From NCBI RefSeq assembly GCF_000282895.1, contig NZ_ALBQ01000018.1:62001-126000 (forward strand): DNA of 64,000 bases, written 5' to 3'. Shown here in pieces: positions 3,232 to 10,987 of this stretch. How positions within the stretch are numbered: the first letter of the stretch is position 1; the number at the start of each line of letters is the position of its first letter. Both the position numbers and the translations under genes were made by a program. The notes below the pieces were generated by a model, which was not told where the DNA came from, did not search any database, and worked only from the letters and a program-made list of their open reading frames with translations. Source of the stretch: Sphingomonas sp. ATCC 31555 (lineage in GTDB: Bacteria > Pseudomonadota > Alphaproteobacteria > Sphingomonadales > Sphingomonadaceae).

Positions 3232-3249
3232 CTGGCTGGGGCGGGAGGA
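3232..3249. repeat. attL core: 18 bp direct repeat of the tRNA-Gln 3' end
   Basis: CTGGCTGGGGCGGGAGGA, identical to 10912-10929. It covers the CCA end, discriminator, 3' acceptor strand and the start of the T arm of tRNA-Gln. The match stops at 3250, where the tRNA body is absent, as expected of a displaced 3' fragment. Confidence 0.88.
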
Positions 3250-3314
3250 GACGGAGCGGAGGGCCAATCAAGGCATTGAGGTGGAAGGATTTGCTTGCAA
3301 TTTCGTGGGTTACG

Positions 3315-3350
3315 CCCCACAAACCTGCCCCACAAACCTGCCCCACACGA
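3315..3350. repeat. Left 36 bp subterminal repeat (candidate integrase arm sites)
   Basis: Two tandem copies of the 13-mer CCCCACAAACCTG followed by CCCCACACGA. All 36 bases recur identically and in the same orientation at 10829-10864. It lies 65 bp inside attL and ends 18 bp before the integrase start codon. Integrase N-terminal domains bind such short repeats, so arm-type sites are the natural reading. Binding here would also sit over the int promoter/leader. Confidence 0.75.
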
Positions 3351-3368
3351 CCTTCAGGAGCCCCGTAA

Positions 3369-4802
3369 ATGGCCTCGATCCGCGCCCGCCACAATCGCTT
3401 TGAAGCGAAGGTGCGGGTGCCCCTAGCCCACCGGGAGGCCCACGATGGCCGGGAGTTCCTCTACCGCACCCTGACCGCCACCAGCCGGAAGGTCGCGCAG
3501 GTCGAAGCCGACGCATGGGAAGCGAGCCTGCGGGTGCAATGGGCAGAACGCGACGGCTTGACGCAGGATGCCCTTGTGAACCTCCGCCGGGTCTACGAGC
3601 AGACCTTGGCCGAAGCCACTGGCGGCAAGTTCGCGGTGCTTGCAGATGGCGTGGACCCGGTCCAGACCGGCATTGATCACGAGATTGAACGCATCGCGGA
3701 CGCTATTCCCGAGGACGACGACCCTGCCCCGGTCAACGCGGCGAAGCTGGCGGCGCTGAATGACGCAAGGACGGTGCTGGCCGGGCGAAAGCCTCCGGTC
3801 CGCCGGGAGTTCGAGCCGTCGTTCTCGCAGCTGGCGTCGGATTACATGAAGCTCTGGAAGACCCAAACCGGCCTCAAGGAGACCAACACCGAGCAGCAGA
3901 AGAACGCCACGTTCCAGCTGTTTGCGGGGTATTGGAAGGATCGTCCTATCCGGCAGATCGGCAGGCCCGATGCGGCCCGGTTCATGGATGCGCTGCGCCA
4001 TCTGGACCCAGCATGGGCGCGGTCGGCGGCGGCCCGGAAGCTGTCGTGGGACGACCTCCTGCGCACCTTCGGCGACCGCCCTAAGGGACTGTCGGACGCC
4101 ACTCGGAACCGCCATGCGGCAACGCTTGGGGCGCTATGGGAATGGGCGAGTGAGCGCGGGTATGCCGAGGGCCGCAACCCATTCAGCGGTCATCGCGCCC
4201 GGCTCCGCAACGGGGTGAACGTGAAGGGCTATCGGCCATGGGAGCCGGAGGAGCTGGCCCGCTTGTTTCATCCCGGTCCCAAGCGCTCGGACCTGCGGGA
4301 AGTGATGATGGTCGCGCTGTTCAGCGGCATGCGCCTGGACGAGATCGCAGGGTTGACGTGGGGGCGGCTGAAGGAGGTCGAGGGCATCCCCGTGTTCGAC
4401 ATCCGCGACGCGAAGACACCAGCGGGCAACCGCCTAGTGCCGGTGCATCCGCAGCTGAAGTGGTTGCTTGATCGGGATCGCGGGGCCGCCGACGCACGTA
4501 TCTGGTCAACGTTCAACCCAGAGGGGCCCGGCAAGAAGGCCGGAGCCGATGCCGGGCGCGAGTTCACCCGGTTTAAGCAGTCGCTCGGCTTCACCGAACG
4601 CTGTGCCGCCTTCCACTCCTTCCGGAAGAACGCGGTTGCGCAGTGGGAAGCCGCGAGCATACCGGAGACCGAAGTTGCCCAGATTGTCGGCCACGAGAAA
4701 AGGGGCATCACGTTCGGCGTCTATGGCGGTGGCGTATCGCTGCAACGGCGGTATGAAATCGTCGCGAAGCTCGCCTATCCGCAAGTGATCGGCGTCTGGT
4801 GA
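3369..4802 (+). CDS. int: Tyrosine recombinase/integrase
   Basis: A 477-residue phage-type integrase. The N-terminal 140 residues are the probable arm-binding and linker region, residues about 148-265 the SAM-like core-binding domain, and 290-470 the catalytic domain. All catalytic residues are visible: R322 (FSGMRLDEIAGL), K349, H416 and R419 (HSFRK), H442 (VGHEK) and nucleophile Y452. The start at 3369 has CAGGAG upstream. It lies next to attL and presumably excises and integrates this element at tRNA-Gln. No excisionase is recognised nearby. Confidence 0.95.
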   Translation: MASIRARHNRFEAKVRVPLAHREAHDGREFLYRTLTATSRKVAQVEADAWEASLRVQWAERDGLTQDALVNLRRVYEQTLAEATGGKFAVLADGVDPVQTGIDHEIERIADAIPEDDDPAPVNAAKLAALNDARTVLAGRKPPVRREFEPSFSQLASDYMKLWKTQTGLKETNTEQQKNATFQLFAGYWKDRPIRQIGRPDAARFMDALRHLDPAWARSAAARKLSWDDLLRTFGDRPKGLSDATRNRHAATLGALWEWASERGYAEGRNPFSGHRARLRNGVNVKGYRPWEPEELARLFHPGPKRSDLREVMMVALFSGMRLDEIAGLTWGRLKEVEGIPVFDIRDAKTPAGNRLVPVHPQLKWLLDRDRGAADARIWSTFNPEGPGKKAGADAGREFTRFKQSLGFTERCAAFHSFRKNAVAQWEAASIPETEVAQIVGHEKRGITFGVYGGGVSLQRRYEIVAKLAYPQVIGVW

Positions 4803-5023
4803 AGCGCGCCGATCTCCCTAGATTGTTTGAAGGGAGCTTCGCCTCCTCCATGGTCCTGATCTCCCGCCCCGGCCCGTTCAAGCTGATCCAGCGGCGCAAC
4901 AAGCCGAAGGCCAGGAGCGCGCTCGGGATGCACCAGCCGCCTCTGTGTAGATCGGACCGACACAGACGAACGTAGCGTCGTGCGGCTCTCTGAGGAACTT
5001 TTCTTCCCGCTTTGCAGCACGGC

Positions 5024-5048
5024 TCAACCTTAATCGGATTAAGGTTGA
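5024..5048. promoter_or_regulatory. Perfect 12 bp-arm dyad in the element
   Basis: TCAACCTTAATC, one base, then GATTAAGGTTGA: a perfect inverted repeat with AT-rich centre and no T-run after it. This is the shape of a repressor operator rather than a terminator. It lies 220 bp behind the integrase, and no regulator gene for it is recognised in the element. Confidence 0.5.
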
Positions 5049-5162
5049 AGCGAGAAGTGAAGCGGCCCCCTGAAAACTTTTGAGGGTCACCCTGTCTACG
5101 ATACAGGGGCGCTGCTTAGGAGCGGGCCGCCTATCATCGGCTCTGCCAGAGCCAGCGGGCGA

Positions 5163-5243
5163 CCATGCCGATTATCCCTCACTCTTGGAGGGTGTGGTAA
5201 CTAGGTATAGGAATGACCTTCAAGATTCCCGAAGGTATCCTCC
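5163..5243 (+). repeat. Duplicated module, copy 1
   Basis: Starts with a 28 bp segment (5163-5190) that matches 5324-5351 with one mismatch and ends with GAAGGTATCCTCC, which resembles the end of copy 2. From the ATG inside it the peptide MPIIPHSWRVW can be read. There is a short hairpin ACCTTC/GAAGGT. Function unknown. Confidence 0.5.
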
Positions 5244-5323
5244 AGCTGCTCCGCAGGTTCCCCGCGAGTGCGCCTGTCAGTCCAGACCTCCTCCATGCCC
5301 ACCGCTGTGGCCGGGTGTCGGGC

Positions 5324-5411
5324 CCATGCCGATTAACCCTCACTCTTGGAGAAGGGAAACCGTAAGTGTTCACTGTCAGTGGAACTGCAGGTTCCTGAAG
5401 GTCCATCCTCC
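5324..5411 (+). repeat. Duplicated module, copy 2
   Basis: Starts with the 28 bp segment shared with copy 1, has a diverged middle, and ends with GAAGGTCCATCCTCC. The ATG at 5326 opens a 30-codon frame beginning MPINPHSWRRETV and ending at TAA 5416-5418. The shared start MPI-I/N-PHSWR suggests either short peptides or a conserved RNA. Confidence 0.5.
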
Positions 5412-5729
5412 TTACTAATCCCACCTAGAATCTCACCGTAAGACCCTCGGTTGGTCCGTTCGGGGAGGACGATGGATCGGCAGACCCACCGTCCACCCTC
5501 CGCCCCCTCCAGTTTCCATCGGCCGACCTCTCGCCTGCCCCGCAGGTGATCGACGGTCGCTGCGCGGGTCCGGTCATCTGTGGCGGGGGCCGGACCCGCA
5601 TGCCCTTCTCACCGCCTCGCCCATCCCCTTTCCCGATTCCGGCTCGCAAGCCGGACCGGCGATGCTGCCCAGCGTCGCCCCTGCCACCGCTGCGCAAGCA
5701 GCCCGTTCAACCCAAAGAGACCTACCGCC

Positions 5730-6500
5730 ATGTCCGATACGACCACCAACGGTTCCTTCGCCGTCGACGGCACGGAGTCGACGTTCACCGCCACGACTGC
5801 CGATTACACGCTGACGCCCGACGAGGAGGCGTTGGTCGCCGGGATCGAAGACCTCGACCCCATCGACTCCATCCCCTCGCCCGTCGTCGCCACCGGCGAC
5901 ACCTCCCGGTTCGCCATCGTTCCGCCTGTCACCGCGTTGCCGCCTGCCCTGCAGGAATACGTCCGGCAACAGCTGGTCGGCATCCCGCAAGAGCGCCTCG
6001 CCGAAGCGGAGCGCGGCGCAATCCTTGTCGCCATGCGCAAGAACGCGCTGGAGCTTCGGGTCAAGCAGGGCGCGGGCCCCGGTGCCACGCCGTACGCGCG
6101 AGAGCTTCTGGACATCTCGCGGGCCATCTACGACCTCGAACGCGAGTTCGACACCATCAGCGCCCAGCTGGCGGAGGTCGACCGCTACGAGACCGACACG
6201 GACCCGGTGACCGGCGCAGCGTCGCCCCGCCCGGTCTATGCCGTCGATGGCCAGCGTCGCCGGGCCCTGGAACAGCGGCTGGCCCAGATCACCTATGAGA
6301 TCAGCCTCAAGGACGGTGAAGAGGGCCGCCGCCGTCTCGCCAAGGCCAAGAAGGAAACCGCAGAGTTCCTGAAGGCCCAGCGCGACCAGCTGGCCGAGGA
6401 CGCGGAGGCGAGGGCCATGGCCGAGCAGATGAACCGGGAAGCCCGGATCAAGGCCAAAGCCGAGATGTACGCCAAACACAACCGCTCCAGCCTTGGCTAA
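5730..6500 (+). CDS. Unrecognised coiled-coil protein of the element
   Basis: A 256-residue protein starting MSDTTTNG. AAAGAGA lies upstream of this ATG, which fits better than starts further upstream. The first 75 residues are acidic and Thr/Asp-rich, the middle (ALPPALQEYVRQQLVGIP) may be helical, and from about residue 110 on there are long charged helices, ending in a Lys/Arg/Glu-rich coiled coil (residues about 190-250). I cannot assign a family. It is the first of a run of same-strand cargo genes with unknown products. Confidence 0.7.
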   Translation: MSDTTTNGSFAVDGTESTFTATTADYTLTPDEEALVAGIEDLDPIDSIPSPVVATGDTSRFAIVPPVTALPPALQEYVRQQLVGIPQERLAEAERGAILVAMRKNALELRVKQGAGPGATPYARELLDISRAIYDLEREFDTISAQLAEVDRYETDTDPVTGAASPRPVYAVDGQRRRALEQRLAQITYEISLKDGEEGRRRLAKAKKETAEFLKAQRDQLAEDAEARAMAEQMNREARIKAKAEMYAKHNRSSLG

Positions 6501-6557
6501 CGCCATGCGCAATGCGTTCGTCTGGTCGGCGCTTTGGCTTGCGATGGCCTGCCTCTG

Positions 6558-6866
6558 ATGGCCCGCTACTCCTCCCGCGAACGCCGCTGGTACGGTCGCC
6601 GGTTCACGCCGCTGCACCAGCCGGTTACCGAGCCGGACGACCGCGAATGGCACACGCAACTGCCGAATGGCATGCTTGTGGTCGAGTTCGGCAACCCCGT
6701 CCGTCGCTTGCCCTGCGAACCCCAGCCGGTGCTTGTGAAGGGCTCCCTCGGAGCCGCGAAGGCAACGCCGGAGCCCTCCTCCGCAGAGGCCGCAACGCCT
6801 CCGTCTGATTGCAGCAAGTCGACGCAGGACCCCCGTGAGTGGAAGCCCGGCCTCGGTCGGGACTGA
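6558..6866 (+). CDS. Small hypothetical protein of the element
   Basis: About 102 residues starting MARYSSRERRWYGRRF. The N-terminal half is basic and aromatic (HQPVTEPDDREWHTQLPNG) and the C-terminal half is Pro/Ala/Ser-rich and probably disordered. An alternative in-frame ATG lies eight codons upstream (6534). Neither start has a strong ribosome binding site. It sits between two same-strand cargo genes. No family recognised. Confidence 0.5.
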   Translation: MARYSSRERRWYGRRFTPLHQPVTEPDDREWHTQLPNGMLVVEFGNPVRRLPCEPQPVLVKGSLGAAKATPEPSSAEAATPPSDCSKSTQDPREWKPGLGRD

Positions 6867-6946
6867 TCCTCGACACCATCAACCATTGATCCTCCCCGCT
6901 CTGCCTCCGGGGAGGGTCGCCCATCAACTTGAGGCACCACGAGAGC

Positions 6947-7225
6947 ATGACCGCCACACCACGCCCATCCGAGGCCCACGCCTCCCCCGCCACCCGCGAC
7001 GATGCCATTGCGGCTATGTGCCGCGAATGCATTTACGACGACCTTGAGCCCGGCACGTGGCGCGAACAGTGCGCCGCCTGCACGGTGACCGCCTGTCCGC
7101 TTTACGCCTTCCGCCCGGTTCCCGACGTCCGCCTGCACGGCCGCCGCCTGTCCCGCGAGGACGCCGCAGCGCACGTGCGGGCCAAGCTTGCGGGCATCCG
7201 CCGGACGTCGCCGCAAGCGGCCTGA
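6947..7225 (+). CDS. Small cysteine-rich protein of a phage-associated type
   Basis: A 92-residue protein with a compact cysteine cluster C25-x2-C28 ... C42-x2-C45-x4-C50 in the context CRECIYDDLEPGTWREQ and CAACTVTACPLYAFRP. I recognise this pattern from small proteins encoded in many prophages and islands, where the cysteines probably bind a metal. The function of that group is not established. The start at 6947 is chosen because upstream codons are outside the conserved part. Confidence 0.72.
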   Translation: MTATPRPSEAHASPATRDDAIAAMCRECIYDDLEPGTWREQCAACTVTACPLYAFRPVPDVRLHGRRLSREDAAAHVRAKLAGIRRTSPQAA

Positions 7226-7362
7226 AACGAGCGCCAATCACCAGCCGCCGCTGGTGATTCAGCAGATCGCGGCTGGCTCAGGCCCGATAGCCCCACACAA
7301 TCGACACCCCCGCCTGATCACCAGTGTACAGCGGGGGTGCCCCACCTCAACAGCAGGGCCAC

Positions 7363-8145
7363 ATGCCTGACGAGAAGTATTGTTCGGGGTGCGGACAGAC
7401 CCTCCCCGCATCCGCCTTTTATGCGCGGAAGAGTGGTAAGCTCTCCAGCCGGTGCAAGAAATGCGTTTCGGCGTCCAACTCGGCGCGGGAGCGCGCACAG
7501 ACCGCCGCCCGCAATGCTGACCCGGAAGTCATCCGCGCTCGCCAGCAGCATGCCGAAAGGGTGCGACGGGAACGGGAGGCCCGCGAGTTAGCCCGCCGGA
7601 TCGCTCGCGAAGCCGCCCGAGCCGAAGCGAAGGCACGCGCCGAGATCCGCGCCGCCTCTCGCGTCAAGACCGGGGCCAAGCTCAAGGGCAACCGCCGCAA
7701 GGCAGTCCAGCCGGTCTCCCCGGAGGAAATGACGGCGAACCGCGACCGGGTTGATTACCTCCTCCTGCTTCTGTCCGACCGCCACCCGACCGAACAGATT
7801 GCAACCGAGCAGTCCTGGAACGCGGCGTATGCCGAGGTGGACCGCCTCTGGTACGTGTCGGGGGACCGCGAGTGCGTCACCTGTCATCGGCGGGTCGCTC
7901 CCACCGAGATGCTGCCCCCGATGCCCGGCAACGGTCGCCCCGGCATGTGCCGCCCGTGCGCAGCGTATGCCGAAGAAGAGAACCACCGCCGCACCTTCGG
8001 TCCGCTCATCGGCCCCCTTCAGTCCCGCCGCAAGCTGCGGATGCTGGACGGGACGTGGATCACGTTGGGCGAACTCGCCCGCCGACACCGCGTCCGCACC
8101 CAAGGCCGTCCCTTCACCACCGCCTCACCGGCGCTCGCCGCCTGA
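7363..8145 (+). CDS. Hypothetical protein with two paired-cysteine (zinc-ribbon-like) modules
   Basis: A 260-residue protein. The N-terminal module has C7-x2-C10 and C31-x2-C34 around LPASAFYARKSGKLSSR, typical of the zinc ribbon found in phage HNH-associated proteins. Residues about 38-115 are a highly charged Arg/Ala/Glu helix. The C-terminal part has a second four-cysteine set, C171-x2-C174 and C196-x2-C199. No HNH catalytic motif is visible. A nucleic-acid-binding role is an inference from the zinc modules and the basic helix. The gene ends 24 bases before the next small gene. Confidence 0.72.
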   Translation: MPDEKYCSGCGQTLPASAFYARKSGKLSSRCKKCVSASNSARERAQTAARNADPEVIRARQQHAERVRREREARELARRIAREAARAEAKARAEIRAASRVKTGAKLKGNRRKAVQPVSPEEMTANRDRVDYLLLLLSDRHPTEQIATEQSWNAAYAEVDRLWYVSGDRECVTCHRRVAPTEMLPPMPGNGRPGMCRPCAAYAEEENHRRTFGPLIGPLQSRRKLRMLDGTWITLGELARRHRVRTQGRPFTTASPALAA

Positions 8146-8169
8146 CCCCACCACATCTGGAGCATCCAC

Positions 8170-8361
8170 ATGGCCTCTGCCCTGTTCGACGACATTCACG
8201 CCACCGCCCGCTTCCCGCTTGCCGCCACCGTCGCGGCGTTGAGTGCGCCAACGGATCCCCGCAGGCACGACTTGGCGCGGCGCGCGTCCGCCATCGCACA
8301 CCAGCAGGGCTATGACGAAGCGACCGAGGCCCTACGCGCCCGAGCCGCAAGGGCACATTGA
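8170..8361 (+). CDS. Small hypothetical protein of the element
   Basis: A 63-residue, mostly helical, Ala/Arg-rich protein (MASALFDDIHATARFPLAA...). GGAG lies a few bases upstream of the start, and the gene follows the zinc-ribbon gene by 24 bases, so both are probably co-transcribed. No family recognised. Confidence 0.6.
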   Translation: MASALFDDIHATARFPLAATVAALSAPTDPRRHDLARRASAIAHQQGYDEATEALRARAARAH

Positions 8362-8481
8362 GAGGGAGGGCGCGCGCGAAATAGCAAACGCCCGCTGTCG
8401 GGGATGCGCGAATGTCTGAGAATGGGTGGTTAGCTGCCGTTCCGCTTTAGGTCAGCACAAAGTGGATAGCAGACAGTCTGC

Positions 8482-8895
8482 ATGTTACGTCGGGTCATGC
8501 TCCCCGTTCTCCTCCTCGCTGCATCCGCCATCGCCTCATCATCACAGGAACCGTCAAAAGAGCAGCTTCATTCTGCGATCTGGGCGGACCTTCAGCTGAA
8601 CGCGATGATTGGCAACGGCAATTGGCCTGCCTCGCTCTGGTATCAGGCAGGGAGCGACACCGCTCCCGACCTGCACATTCAGGATTTGACCTGCACCAAG
8701 GAAGGCTCACAGCAGCGTTGCTCGTTCAACCTGCATCGCGACGGGGGCCCTAAAACGGTGTTGGGCGAATCTGCCGCCGCCGACCTGGCTTGCTCCGCCT
8801 CTTTCTTCGCTGACGGCGAAGGCTGGTCTGTGGTGCATACACCTCCGCGTCATGCGGGTCACAGCGTGACCTCTATGCGGTGCAAGGCCGTATAG
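8482..8895 (+). CDS. Secreted hypothetical protein of the element
   Basis: A 137-residue protein with a clear signal peptide (MLRRVMLPVLLLAASAIASS) and four cysteines in the mature part (C at about 70, 78, 104 and 133), which could form disulfides in the periplasm. It starts 120 bases after the previous gene and probably has its own promoter in that gap. Not recognised. A secreted product on an island with an abortive-infection gene may act at the envelope, but that is speculation. Confidence 0.65.
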   Translation: MLRRVMLPVLLLAASAIASSSQEPSKEQLHSAIWADLQLNAMIGNGNWPASLWYQAGSDTAPDLHIQDLTCTKEGSQQRCSFNLHRDGGPKTVLGESAAADLACSASFFADGEGWSVVHTPPRHAGHSVTSMRCKAV

Positions 8896-9267
8896 CGCCA
8901 AACGTCCGGTATTCGGCGCCGTCGATTGCACGTGAATGTCGGCGCTTGGGGCGATTGCGGTCATTCGGCAATCGTAGGTCTACTGCCCAGTTTTGGCGCA
9001 GAAATCCGAAGCGCCATATCGCTCCTGACGATTGTCGCTTCCCCCCGTCGGGGGGCCACATCCATAGCAGCCGCCTTCTACGCACGGTGGCCCTAGCTCT
9101 GCGGTAGCCTGGCTCGTGCACCCTTCGCGACGCCCCGGCGGGATCAGCCGCCGCCTGCATGGCTCAGAAGGTGTAACCTGCGCGCTAGGCGCAGAAGATA
9201 TCTTGACGACCAAAGTGAGCTATGGATATGAGCTAGCCAACAGCCACCCCTAACTTCCGAGCCACCC
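8896..9267. other. Intergenic stretch with a hairpin and repeat-like sequence
   Basis: No convincing gene. The segment around 8930-8970 (AATGTCGGCGCTTGGGGCGA followed by TTGCGGTCATTCGGC) resembles short intergenic repeats I have seen in other alphaproteobacterial genomes. A C6/G6 hairpin lies at 9041-9055. The last 60 bases should hold the promoter of the serine recombinase. Confidence 0.45.
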
Positions 9268-9849
9268 ATGTCGCACCGCATCGCCTACTACCGCGTCTCG
9301 ACCACCGACCAGTCCATCGAAGCCCAGCGAGCCGCCATGGGTGGCCCGTTCGATCAGGAGTTCTCGGACGAGGGCGTTAGCGGCGGGGTGCTGGCCACCG
9401 ACCGCCCCGGCTTCGCTGCGATGCTGGCAGCGCTCCGCAAGGGCGACACGCTCCACGTCTACGCGGTCGACCGCCTCGGGCGCGATGCCATCGACGTGCA
9501 GACCACCGTCCGTGACCTTCTGGCCAAGGGTGTGACCCTGCACGTTCACGGCATCGGCCCCATCGGTGAAGGCGTGGGCGAGATCATCATCGCCGTCCTG
9601 GCCCAGATGGCCGCCATGGAGCGCCGCAGGATCGCCGAGCGCACCGAAGCGGGCCGTATAGCCGCCCGGAAGGCACTTGCGGAGACCGGCAGGACGCACC
9701 GGGGCAAGGAGAGCCTTGGGCGTCCCTATGCGGCTGACGCAGCTGCGGTGCGAGAATGGCGGAAGGCGCAAAGCGCCAGCATCGCCGCGACGGCCCAGCA
9801 TTTCGGTCTCTCGGCTGCGACGGTAAAGCGGTACTGCGCGGCGGGATGA
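9268..9849 (+). CDS. Serine recombinase (resolvase/invertase family)
   Basis: A 193-residue small serine recombinase. The nucleophile serine is S11 in YYRVSTTDQS. The conserved DRLGRD segment is at about residues 66-71 and the region around LAQMAAMERRRIAERTEAG is the dimer helix. The C-terminal 45 residues contain a Hin-type helix-turn-helix (SIAATAQHFGLSAATVKRYC). Length matches Hin/Gin/resolvases (180-200), not the large serine integrases. It may resolve dimers or invert a segment of the element, but I see no obvious pair of crossover sites. Confidence 0.92.
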   Translation: MSHRIAYYRVSTTDQSIEAQRAAMGGPFDQEFSDEGVSGGVLATDRPGFAAMLAALRKGDTLHVYAVDRLGRDAIDVQTTVRDLLAKGVTLHVHGIGPIGEGVGEIIIAVLAQMAAMERRRIAERTEAGRIAARKALAETGRTHRGKESLGRPYAADAAAVREWRKAQSASIAATAQHFGLSAATVKRYCAAG

Positions 9850-9952
9850 CTTGCTTCCGCTTTGCCCTGCTTTTTTCGGAGCGGCATGATACAGCACCCC
9901 TATGAAATTCTTAGCCCCCCTCCCAAACACATCGGGCGGGGGTAGCGTTCGA

Positions 9953-10735
9953 CTATCCCCCGCTGTCGAGGCGGTGCGCTGCCGTCTCAACCAGATAGAG
10001 CGCCATGGAACCCGCAAGGTTCACGACCAAGTGTGCGTGCCGCTCTGCGATCCTAACGGGCCGCTTCCCTTTGCCGTGCGCGTCGCCAAGCCGATTTCGG
10101 ATTGCACCGATGCCTTCAACAACCGTGACGCAACCGCCAAGCAGCTGTTTGAAGACCTGTTCGGTGTGCTGGGACGGGGCAAGGTTCAGCTTTTCGGCCG
10201 TGAGGCGATAGAGTTTCGGCAGATCGTCCCCTGCTCGGTAAAGGGGATCGTCATCCGTGAACTCGTCCAGAATATGCATGCACACGCTTTCAAGCAGCGT
10301 CCGCGCAGATGTAACCGCTCCCTCCGCATCGCCCGCACACCTAGAGAGCGCCTTCTCCCACACCCTGCCAACCTCGGCTGCGTCGTGACTGTTGAGCCTG
10401 TCTGAGATGAGGTCCGCCGTCGGACTCCCTCGCATCTCCAGCCGCTCCAACAGCGGGGCAAACTGCTCGCGTAAGAACGTCCGACGCTCTGCGTAGGAGG
10501 AGTACTCCGCTTTGATGAACTGCCAGAAATCGTCTGGGGACTGACATGTTCTCACGAATCTTGGCAGCAAGTCGCTCAAGGACGGGTTTTGCATCAGTTC
10601 CGCGCGGAGAACGCGGTACACGTTGTGATCGATAGTTCCGCCCGTCGCCTGCGACACCAAGCCGAGCCGGAGCGCCAACACCCGCTCAACCGGGTCAGAG
10701 GGCAAAGCCTCAACGGGATCAGGAAGGTCAAACAT
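9953..10735 (-). CDS. Abortive infection family protein (Abi C-terminal domain)
   Basis: About 260 residues from the chosen start MFDLPDPVEAL, which has GGAG six bases before it. Longer starts at 10753 or 10822 are possible, and the longest frame runs into the arm repeat. The C-terminal half matches the Abi_C-type domain: SARTLLESVCMHILDE, DDLPKLYRLTAEKLNLAPSQ, HTEQVFKQLLGG and RNRLGDAHGKGK, with conserved Arg, His and Lys. Members are found on mobile islands and some act in abortive phage defence. The mechanism is not established for most. Its place next to the tRNA end of the island, transcribed against the other cargo, fits a self-contained defence module. Confidence 0.85.
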   Translation of the reverse strand: MFDLPDPVEALPSDPVERVLALRLGLVSQATGGTIDHNVYRVLRAELMQNPSLSDLLPRFVRTCQSPDDFWQFIKAEYSSYAERRTFLREQFAPLLERLEMRGSPTADLISDRLNSHDAAEVGRVWEKALSRCAGDAEGAVTSARTLLESVCMHILDEFTDDDPLYRAGDDLPKLYRLTAEKLNLAPSQHTEQVFKQLLGGCVTVVEGIGAIRNRLGDAHGKGKRPVRIAERHAHLVVNLAGSMALYLVETAAHRLDSGG

Positions 10736-10828
10736 GGCCCGCTCCACAACCATGATTCGATTGCCGACGGGAGGTTGTACCTCGTCCCGCGAATCGGCGA
10801 AGGTTGAGGCGCGCGAAGTCATGCCCGC

Positions 10829-10864
10829 CCCCACAAACCTGCCCCACAAACCTGCCCCACACGA
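10829..10864. repeat. Right 36 bp subterminal repeat (candidate integrase arm sites)
   Basis: Identical in all 36 bases and orientation to 3315-3350, 47 bp inside attR. It lies just upstream of the abortive-infection gene, so protein bound here could also affect that gene. Confidence 0.75.
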
Positions 10865-10911
10865 GGCCAATTTTAGGCGCTAACGACTTGAGAAAACTCG
10901 ATTTTTGGTTT

Positions 10912-10929
10912 CTGGCTGGGGCGGGAGGA
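10912..10929. repeat. attR core: 18 bp repeat inside tRNA-Gln
   Basis: CTGGCTGGGGCGGGAGGA, identical to 3232-3249. It forms the 3' end of the intact tRNA gene, so integration leaves a functional tRNA. Confidence 0.88.
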
Positions 10930-10987
10930 TTCGAACCTCCGAATGACGGTACCAAAAACCGTTGCCTTACCACTTGGCGACGCCCCA
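10913..10987 (-). tRNA. tRNA-Gln (anticodon TTG)
   Basis: A 75-base cloverleaf on the minus strand. The acceptor stem TGGGGCG/CGCCCCA is perfect, followed by discriminator G and an encoded CCA. The D arm is GCCAAGTGGTAAGGC, the anticodon arm ACGGT-TTTTGGT-ACCGT with anticodon TTG at 10953-10955, and the T arm is GGAGGTTCGAATCCTCC. It is the integration target of the element on its left. Confidence 0.97.

Follow-up and report, generated by a model that had tools for sequence, protein, structure and literature searches.

The nearest described concept to the element treated here is PICMI (phage-inducible chromosomal minimalist islands), a satellite of Vibrionaceae whose core consists of int, alpA and a primase gene, whose helper is a virulent phage, and which integrates downstream of fis (PMC10803314). 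Our element is an island of 7.7 kb at positions 3232-10929 of a 64,000-nucleotide stretch of Sphingomonas sp. ATCC 31555 (contig NZ_ALBQ01000018.1, called the window below), in a genome of 4,046,117 bases (4.05 Mb). It resembles PICMI in being a small island integrated at a tRNA or gene end, with an integrase, a defence gene, no capsid-remodelling genes and a presumed dependence on phage particles (PMC10803314). It differs in having only the integrase of this core, AlpA and primase not being found, and in its signals, which are T7-class promoter-like sites and a box shared with the terminase end of phages. Phage-inducible chromosomal islands (PICI), including the Staphylococcus aureus pathogenicity islands (SaPI), and P4-like satellites are similar in their integrase, small size and cargo hotspots of antiviral systems; unlike them, the island has no relative of AlpA, Stl, Rpr, primase, TerS, Sid or Cpm among the nine open reading frames (ORFs) scanned against Pfam, PHROGs and NCBIfam, the smaller ORFs in the gaps being outside the scan. 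As read here the island is a form of phage satellite, itself a known kind, and in the open-access literature searched, which is not all print, there was no satellite with T7-like or Autographiviridae helpers, with a single-subunit polymerase, or from Sphingomonas.

We consider it probable that T7-like (Autographiviridae-type) phages with integrases are the helpers of this island, which would be their chromosomal satellite, switched by the polymerase of the helper and packaged via a copied box. The first-pass annotation of this DNA had called it a "phage-satellite-like or defence island", which was right in kind and can now be narrowed to a satellite-like element whose signals tie it to T7-like phages and whose cargo slot has an anti-phage gene. 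The support comes at the level of sequence from the integration anatomy, from T7-class promoter sites before five small genes (P2-P6), from a box that also occurs past the large terminase gene (TerL) of T7-like phages, and from a slot for anti-phage cargo. A 36-bp direct repeat inside both ends, the two T7/T3-like promoter sites and the packaging-end box are features beyond that annotation.

The starting point for a 23-bp motif, composed of [AG]ATTA, five variable bases, CAC, [TC]CT[TC] and GG, was a 28-bp repeat in the gap between the integrase gene and P2. A hairpin reading of the repeated 28-mer was rejected, the hairpin being visible by eye in one copy and lost in the others. The motif has the layout of a T7-class promoter (23 bp from -17 to +6, with AATTA, a variable stretch from -12 to -8, CAC and a GG start), and by this layout the two plus-strand sites of the window are putative promoters of the T7/T3 class. 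They lie at 5170-5192 (29.7 bits, or 28.7 under a model built without the window) and 5331-5353 (35.3 bits, or 34.7 under that model; one mismatch to AATTAACCCTCACTNNNGG). The consensus sequences of the T3 and K11 promoters share AATTA, five variable bases, CAC, three bases and GG with the island sites, which differ in having CT[TC] instead of AAA or TAT before the start and in being located in a bacterial chromosome. Scored with the element-trained model, the T3 and K11 sequences reach 20.0 and 19.1 bits, SP6 8.3 and T7 6.6. A direct T3 pattern with up to three mismatches matched the window twice, at exactly these sites (0.14 expected; 1 of 100 shuffles reached two).

The motif is concentrated upstream of P2. 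Of 21 loci, counting the window, 20 had sites above 11 bits in the 1.6 kb before this gene. All 54 of these sites are on the P2 strand; the reverse strand of the same regions held 2, and 20 mononucleotide shuffles gave a mean of 0.3 and a maximum of 2. At a threshold of 15 bits there were 52 sites in 19 of 21 loci, compared with a mean of 0.17 and a maximum of 1 over 30 dinucleotide shuffles. In 207 kb of host DNA, 2 motif matches exceeded 12 bits, and with up to three mismatches the two island sites were the only ones in the whole genome. The promoter cluster of the window has a GC content of 56% against 65% for the locus; other loci vary between no difference and a clear one, and three show the reverse, a GC-richer cluster.

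The motif also occurs in phages. Searched for in an exact form, it turned up in 9 of 2.9 million IMG/VR viral contigs, all nine of which have T7-like phage genes and two of which, as whole records, have a single-subunit RNA polymerase; L127, L128 and L132 look like one phage. Genome contigs scanned with the strict promoter pattern yielded two records, one of them probably by chance. To avoid selection by the motif, 397 genomes of the family were also searched for the polymerase (PF00940); this set and a set of 201 same-genus genomes both count our own genome. Matches were obtained in 8 of the 397, 7 of them above the cut-off, and our genome, where neither PF00940 nor PF12236 gave a match, showed no sign of a resident helper. 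One prophage found via its polymerase alone, G226, has a polymerase 66% identical to that of G608 and carries sites before the polymerase gene, just after it (two in tandem), and between exonuclease and portal genes. This last interval carries a site in all five sequences that span it (G226, G608, L126, L131 and L133), four of which had been picked by the motif, though not by its position. Among more distant polymerases, there was no site above 18 bits in G412, G235, G217 (two polymerases), G441, G203, S2B or jiawei, and G539 has a single such site, immediately ahead of its polymerase gene. In the T7-like prophages of G049 and G556 nothing exceeded 10 bits. We note in passing that the record "Mycobacterium phage jiawei" (L139, OR464703) has the gene order of S2B and a polymerase 52% identical to that of an alphaproteobacterial-type phage contig; its host label is surprising.

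The second signal is a 26-bp box, CGCTTCGGATTTCTGCGCCAAAACTG, at 8988-9013 on the minus strand. In 20 of 23 loci a box of this kind, with the consensus CGCTTCGGATTTTTGCGCCAAAACTA, precedes the small serine recombinase gene by 257-743 bp, its orientation being the same throughout, and our whole genome has a single match with up to three mismatches, in the island. A box model built from elements only gave a match within about 600 bp past TerL in seven of nine TerL-bearing sequences (S2B, G226, G609, L125, L127, L128 and L132; not jiawei or G235), and S2B and G226 had been selected by neither promoter motif nor box. Elsewhere in 541 kb of phage sequence there were two weak matches and one of 23.4 bits in G412, where TerL was not found, and the best score in 207 kb of host DNA was 15.9 bits. 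In the Caulobacter phage S2B (MN857473) the annotated terminal repeat spans 1-259 and the box starts at 263, i.e., 4 bp beyond it. These phages have the box where a T7-like packaging site is placed, at the terminal-repeat boundary by TerL, and the element shares its sequence. S2B, a T7-like phage with an integrase, also encodes proteins homologous to the internal virion proteins that some elements have; it differs from the elements in being a full phage of 45.7 kb, without P2, P3 and P4, and with other promoters.

Searching viral contigs with the box alone returned eight contigs, of which seven were new and one, L125, had been obtained before. All carry T7-like phage genes, which in L171 are just an integrase and a small regulator-like protein, and L167 and L169 look like one phage. 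TerL adjoins the box in six of the eight; in the other two it falls outside the stretch examined. In all eight, the strand that bears the box also has a promoter site at a distance of 32-43 bases from it, in several dialects: AATTAGTCAG, AATTAGGGCC, AATTAGGCCG and AATTAACACG. Elements likewise differ among themselves, and it is possible, at somewhat less than even chances, that the promoter dialect varies among elements with the clade of the helper. As a separate observation, the promoter beside the box in L125, L127 and L167-L173 is directed away from the side of the terminal repeat and runs antisense into the terminase gene. As cis signals that would answer to a helper, then, the island has promoter sites and a box common to T7-like phages.

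These signals suggest the following course of events. The island would be integrated in tRNA-Gln by its tyrosine integrase and then be silent, since the promoters ahead of P2-P6 are of the T7/T3 class, for which the host has no polymerase. Upon infection by a T7-like helper, the single-subunit RNA polymerase of the phage would transcribe P2-P6. The tandem promoters in the GC-poor gap may also act as a T7-type origin of the excised circle, which would explain how an element without a replication gene is replicated. The box copied from the terminase end of the helper would direct element DNA into helper particles, and the serine recombinase may resolve multimers. The slot beside the tRNA, here with an AbiJ-like gene, would hold interchangeable anti-phage systems guarding the host against other phages.

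Several points weigh against this account. Induction, excision, replication, packaging and transfer are inferred from the sequence. The loci on which the promoter model was trained are also those in which sites were later counted, the window's own sites alone being rescored with the window left out. Two of the 21 P2 loci have no site above 15 bits, and 9 further matches above 11 bits lie outside the P2-upstream regions or on the other strand, among them those of L089, with two strong sites, one on the opposite strand. Three of the 23 loci (L019, L020 and L021) lack the box, and the promoter that adjoins it in phages is not copied at the box of the island. In S2B the box is present without a matching promoter (best 13.2 bits), and in jiawei both are absent. 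Finally, a link of P2 to a terminase or scaffold could not be made.

The attempt at such a link started from a structure model of P2 (pLDDT 85.4, pTM 0.72; the predicted local distance difference test and template modelling scores), which is mainly helical with one hairpin. Fold searches gave nothing at an E value of 0.001 or better, in no library a convincing match, and a sequence search of plasmids, phages and viral contigs found no relative. In structural alignment the small terminase of G20c reached a Z score of 7.1 among many unrelated helical rows. We did not adopt the reading of P2 as a small terminase or scaffold, the structural scores being middling and covering helical parts only, and its profile compared with the S2B and jiawei scaffold and with the ORF before TerL gave just 0.2 and 0.1%.

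The perfect 18-bp repeat of the tRNA-Gln 3' end that the first-pass annotation had placed at both ends was borne out: the core, CTGGCTGGGGCGGGAGGA, has exactly two copies in the genome, the tRNA-distal one at 3232-3249 and the tRNA-side one at 10912-10929 (both plus strand). The right copy is the tRNA 3' end because ARAGORN calls tRNA-Gln(TTG) at 10913-10987 on the minus strand; this target is left whole, and among known RNA families tRNA alone was above threshold. Just inside the cores, a perfect 36-bp direct repeat built of CCCCACAAACCTG units occurs at 3315-3350 and 10829-10864 on the plus strand. Sites resembling it occur near both ends in L015, L016 and L017, and we infer from this position the arm-site arrangement of a tyrosine integrase. 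Such an enzyme, of 477 aa, is encoded at 3369-4802 (plus strand; phrog_1 2.3e-33; PF00589 4.8e-05, under its cut-off). Core, arm repeats, tRNA and integrase, with the same site in relatives, support the view that this tyrosine integrase placed the island in the 3' end of tRNA-Gln.

A related integrase (E 1e-30 or better) is present in 7 of the 201 same-genus genomes, our own included. Three of the other six (L015, L016 and L017) have it at the same tRNA-Gln with the same neighbour gene, L019 at a different tRNA-Gln context and L018 at tRNA-Trp; in L020 a second core copy is present and the tRNA was not found. All seven elements of this integrase family have a homologue of the small serine recombinase, and their cargo varies. 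L016, L019 and L020 have no P2 and hold long genes that by eye resemble genes for restriction or another form of defence. The tRNA has a conserved gene upstream, and of 23 loci around that gene 21 gave a tRNA-Gln call. In six relatives with the right flank, similarity to the window ends at the tRNA 3' end (window 10911-10913) in all six, and none has element proteins at the site (19 kb each, E 1e-4). The left flank adjoined tRNA-Gln in none of the 19 loci checked and was found elsewhere, so that an exact empty junction was not demonstrated. The first-pass annotation had proposed looking for an empty tRNA-Gln site in relatives; the right side of that expectation held and the exact junction was not found. 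Neither of the findings that it named as counter-evidence was made, namely the same genes in close relatives at a site without the 18-bp repeat, or the whole segment as ancestral chromosome of all relatives: the integrase is rare in the genus, and these six relatives have no element proteins at the site.

Homologues of the integrase and of the genes at 5730-8361, whose search elsewhere it had also proposed, do exist, as an element family with a recurring gene order. P2 relatives were found in 5 of the 201 same-genus genomes by single-sequence search and in 16 of the 397 family genomes by profile, our own counted in both. Within 19-kb surroundings, the order integrase, P2-P3-P4, small serine recombinase, cargo slot and tRNA recurs across several genera, with intact frames and P2 identities of 25-37% between elements of many genera. 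A tRNA gene forms the end of eight P2 elements that have a related integrase: it is tRNA-Gln in seven (window, L015, L082, L087, L091, L095 and L098) and tRNA-Trp in one (L085). In L083, L089, L090, L092, L093 and L096 the P2 locus starts with a large serine recombinase gene instead, and in L083, L089 and L092 a gene that by eye is comM/yifB-like lies at the far side of such elements. G439 holds two elements, L088 and L090, with near-identical P2 and P3, one with a tyrosine and the other with a large serine integrase gene.

On the nine scanned ORFs, PADLOC was used besides the three collections named above, and there was no structural, conjugation or replication gene, which agrees with the absence noted earlier; in particular, no virion gene was found, as expected of a satellite with an incomplete virion gene set. 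The five small genes, all on the plus strand, encode P2 (5730-6500, 256 aa, a conserved element protein with the helical fold and beta hairpin described above), P3 (6558-6866, 102 aa, conserved beside P2 in a protein cluster spanning 8 loci), P4 (6947-7225, 92 aa, Cys-rich with CxxC...C...C, conserved in related elements), P5 (7363-8145, 260 aa, a zinc-ribbon protein of cluster C12) and P6 (8170-8361, 63 aa, no family matched). The earlier description of them as unknown stands in that none of the five has a curated family above cut-off; it falls short for P5, whose residues 3-100 match the endonuclease family phrog_2340 (2.1e-10), so that P5 is zinc-ribbon/endonuclease-VII-like in PHROGs. The cargo protein of 137 aa at 8482-8895 (plus strand) also matched no family and was not found in the related elements searched; it looks secreted by eye, from its apparent signal peptide. 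The serine recombinase (9268-9849, plus strand, 193 aa, PF00239 1.5e-29) and the Abi-type protein were, like the integrase, correctly named in the first reading. The latter is Abi_C/AbiJ-like (9953-10822, minus strand, start codon uncertain; PF14355 8.5e-21, phrog_23253 9.6e-62, PADLOC AbiJ 2.1e-20 over residues 164-280). The ratio of non-synonymous to synonymous substitution (dN/dS) is about 0.1 for the integrase against its relatives, 0.05-0.17 for the small serine recombinase and 0.24 for P2 between L084 and L085. These values are rough because several dS exceed 1 and the distant P2 pair, window and L084, gives 0.59; they indicate that the core genes are under purifying selection.

The AbiJ-like gene occupies the slot between serine recombinase and tRNA. 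Cargo was compared in nine loci, namely ten proteins of eight loci plus the window, and five of the nine had PADLOC matches: AbiJ in the window, a type II methylase with a BglII-like endonuclease in L015, a reverse transcriptase in L082, PDC-M68B in L021, and in L089 a cyclase with a 4TM effector, i.e., a cyclic-oligonucleotide-based anti-phage signalling system (CBASS). The cargo of L098 has an HSDR_N domain in Pfam and no PADLOC match, and the cargo proteins of L088, L091 and L092 had no match. By gene family the slot carries interchangeable anti-phage systems, which presumably are active.

Other explanations of the same island have to be weighed. The islands could be decayed T7-like prophages that have kept the promoters, the packaging end and some late genes. 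Genes for T7-like internal virion (ejection) proteins do occur in 7 of the 21 P2 loci (L015, L022, L086, L088, L090, L092 and L093), L022 having two large ones directly before P2 and P3, and L090 contains phage antirepressors. Models of P2, P3 and P4, on the other hand, had no match in 12 T7-like phage or prophage sequences, nor in the nine promoter contigs or the seven new box contigs; the prophages of G049 and G556 were tried as a source of P2 and dropped, there being no match to any of the three models. This argument from absence in phages is qualified by P4, which has distant matches in 5 Vibrio phage records. Decay also accords poorly with the same gene order and intact frames in many genera at P2 identities of 25-37%, with an integrase dN/dS of about 0.1, and with the absence of virion genes from the ORFs scanned in the window element, and we regard it as unlikely. 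Independently of this question, the internal virion protein genes of P2 elements are single, in some elements without any other virion gene seen.

In another scenario the island would be an alarm-type defence island, in which the promoters sense infection and P2-P6 harm or block the T7-like phage without any packaging. The PADLOC matches in five of nine cargo loci and the specificity of the promoters for a single polymerase clade would suit it, but a sensor needs neither a packaging-end box nor an integrase conserved with that box, and the cargo gene is on the strand opposite to the promoters; we hold it to be quite unlikely. It is very improbable, in our view, that the island is a plain integrative element moved through conjugation by a helper plasmid, with its phage signals acquired by accident. 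Its small size, integrase and cargo, and the integrase relatives L019 and L020 without promoter or box, agree with such an origin; no relaxase was found among the ORFs scanned with Pfam and PHROGs (oriT was not searched for), and most members, in different genera, retain both phage signals. The reading that we prefer is the satellite of T7-like phages.

If it is true, there would be chromosomal parasites of T7-like phages that exploit the polymerase of these textbook lytic viruses, the very enzyme that is a laboratory standard. This would be a simple and portable satellite switch, testable by one promoter fusion, and minimal islands without replication genes would be explained. Satellite and helper could be paired from sequence, via promoter dialect and packaging box, and the family, for which the literature searched has no satellites, would gain an added mobile carrier of anti-phage systems.

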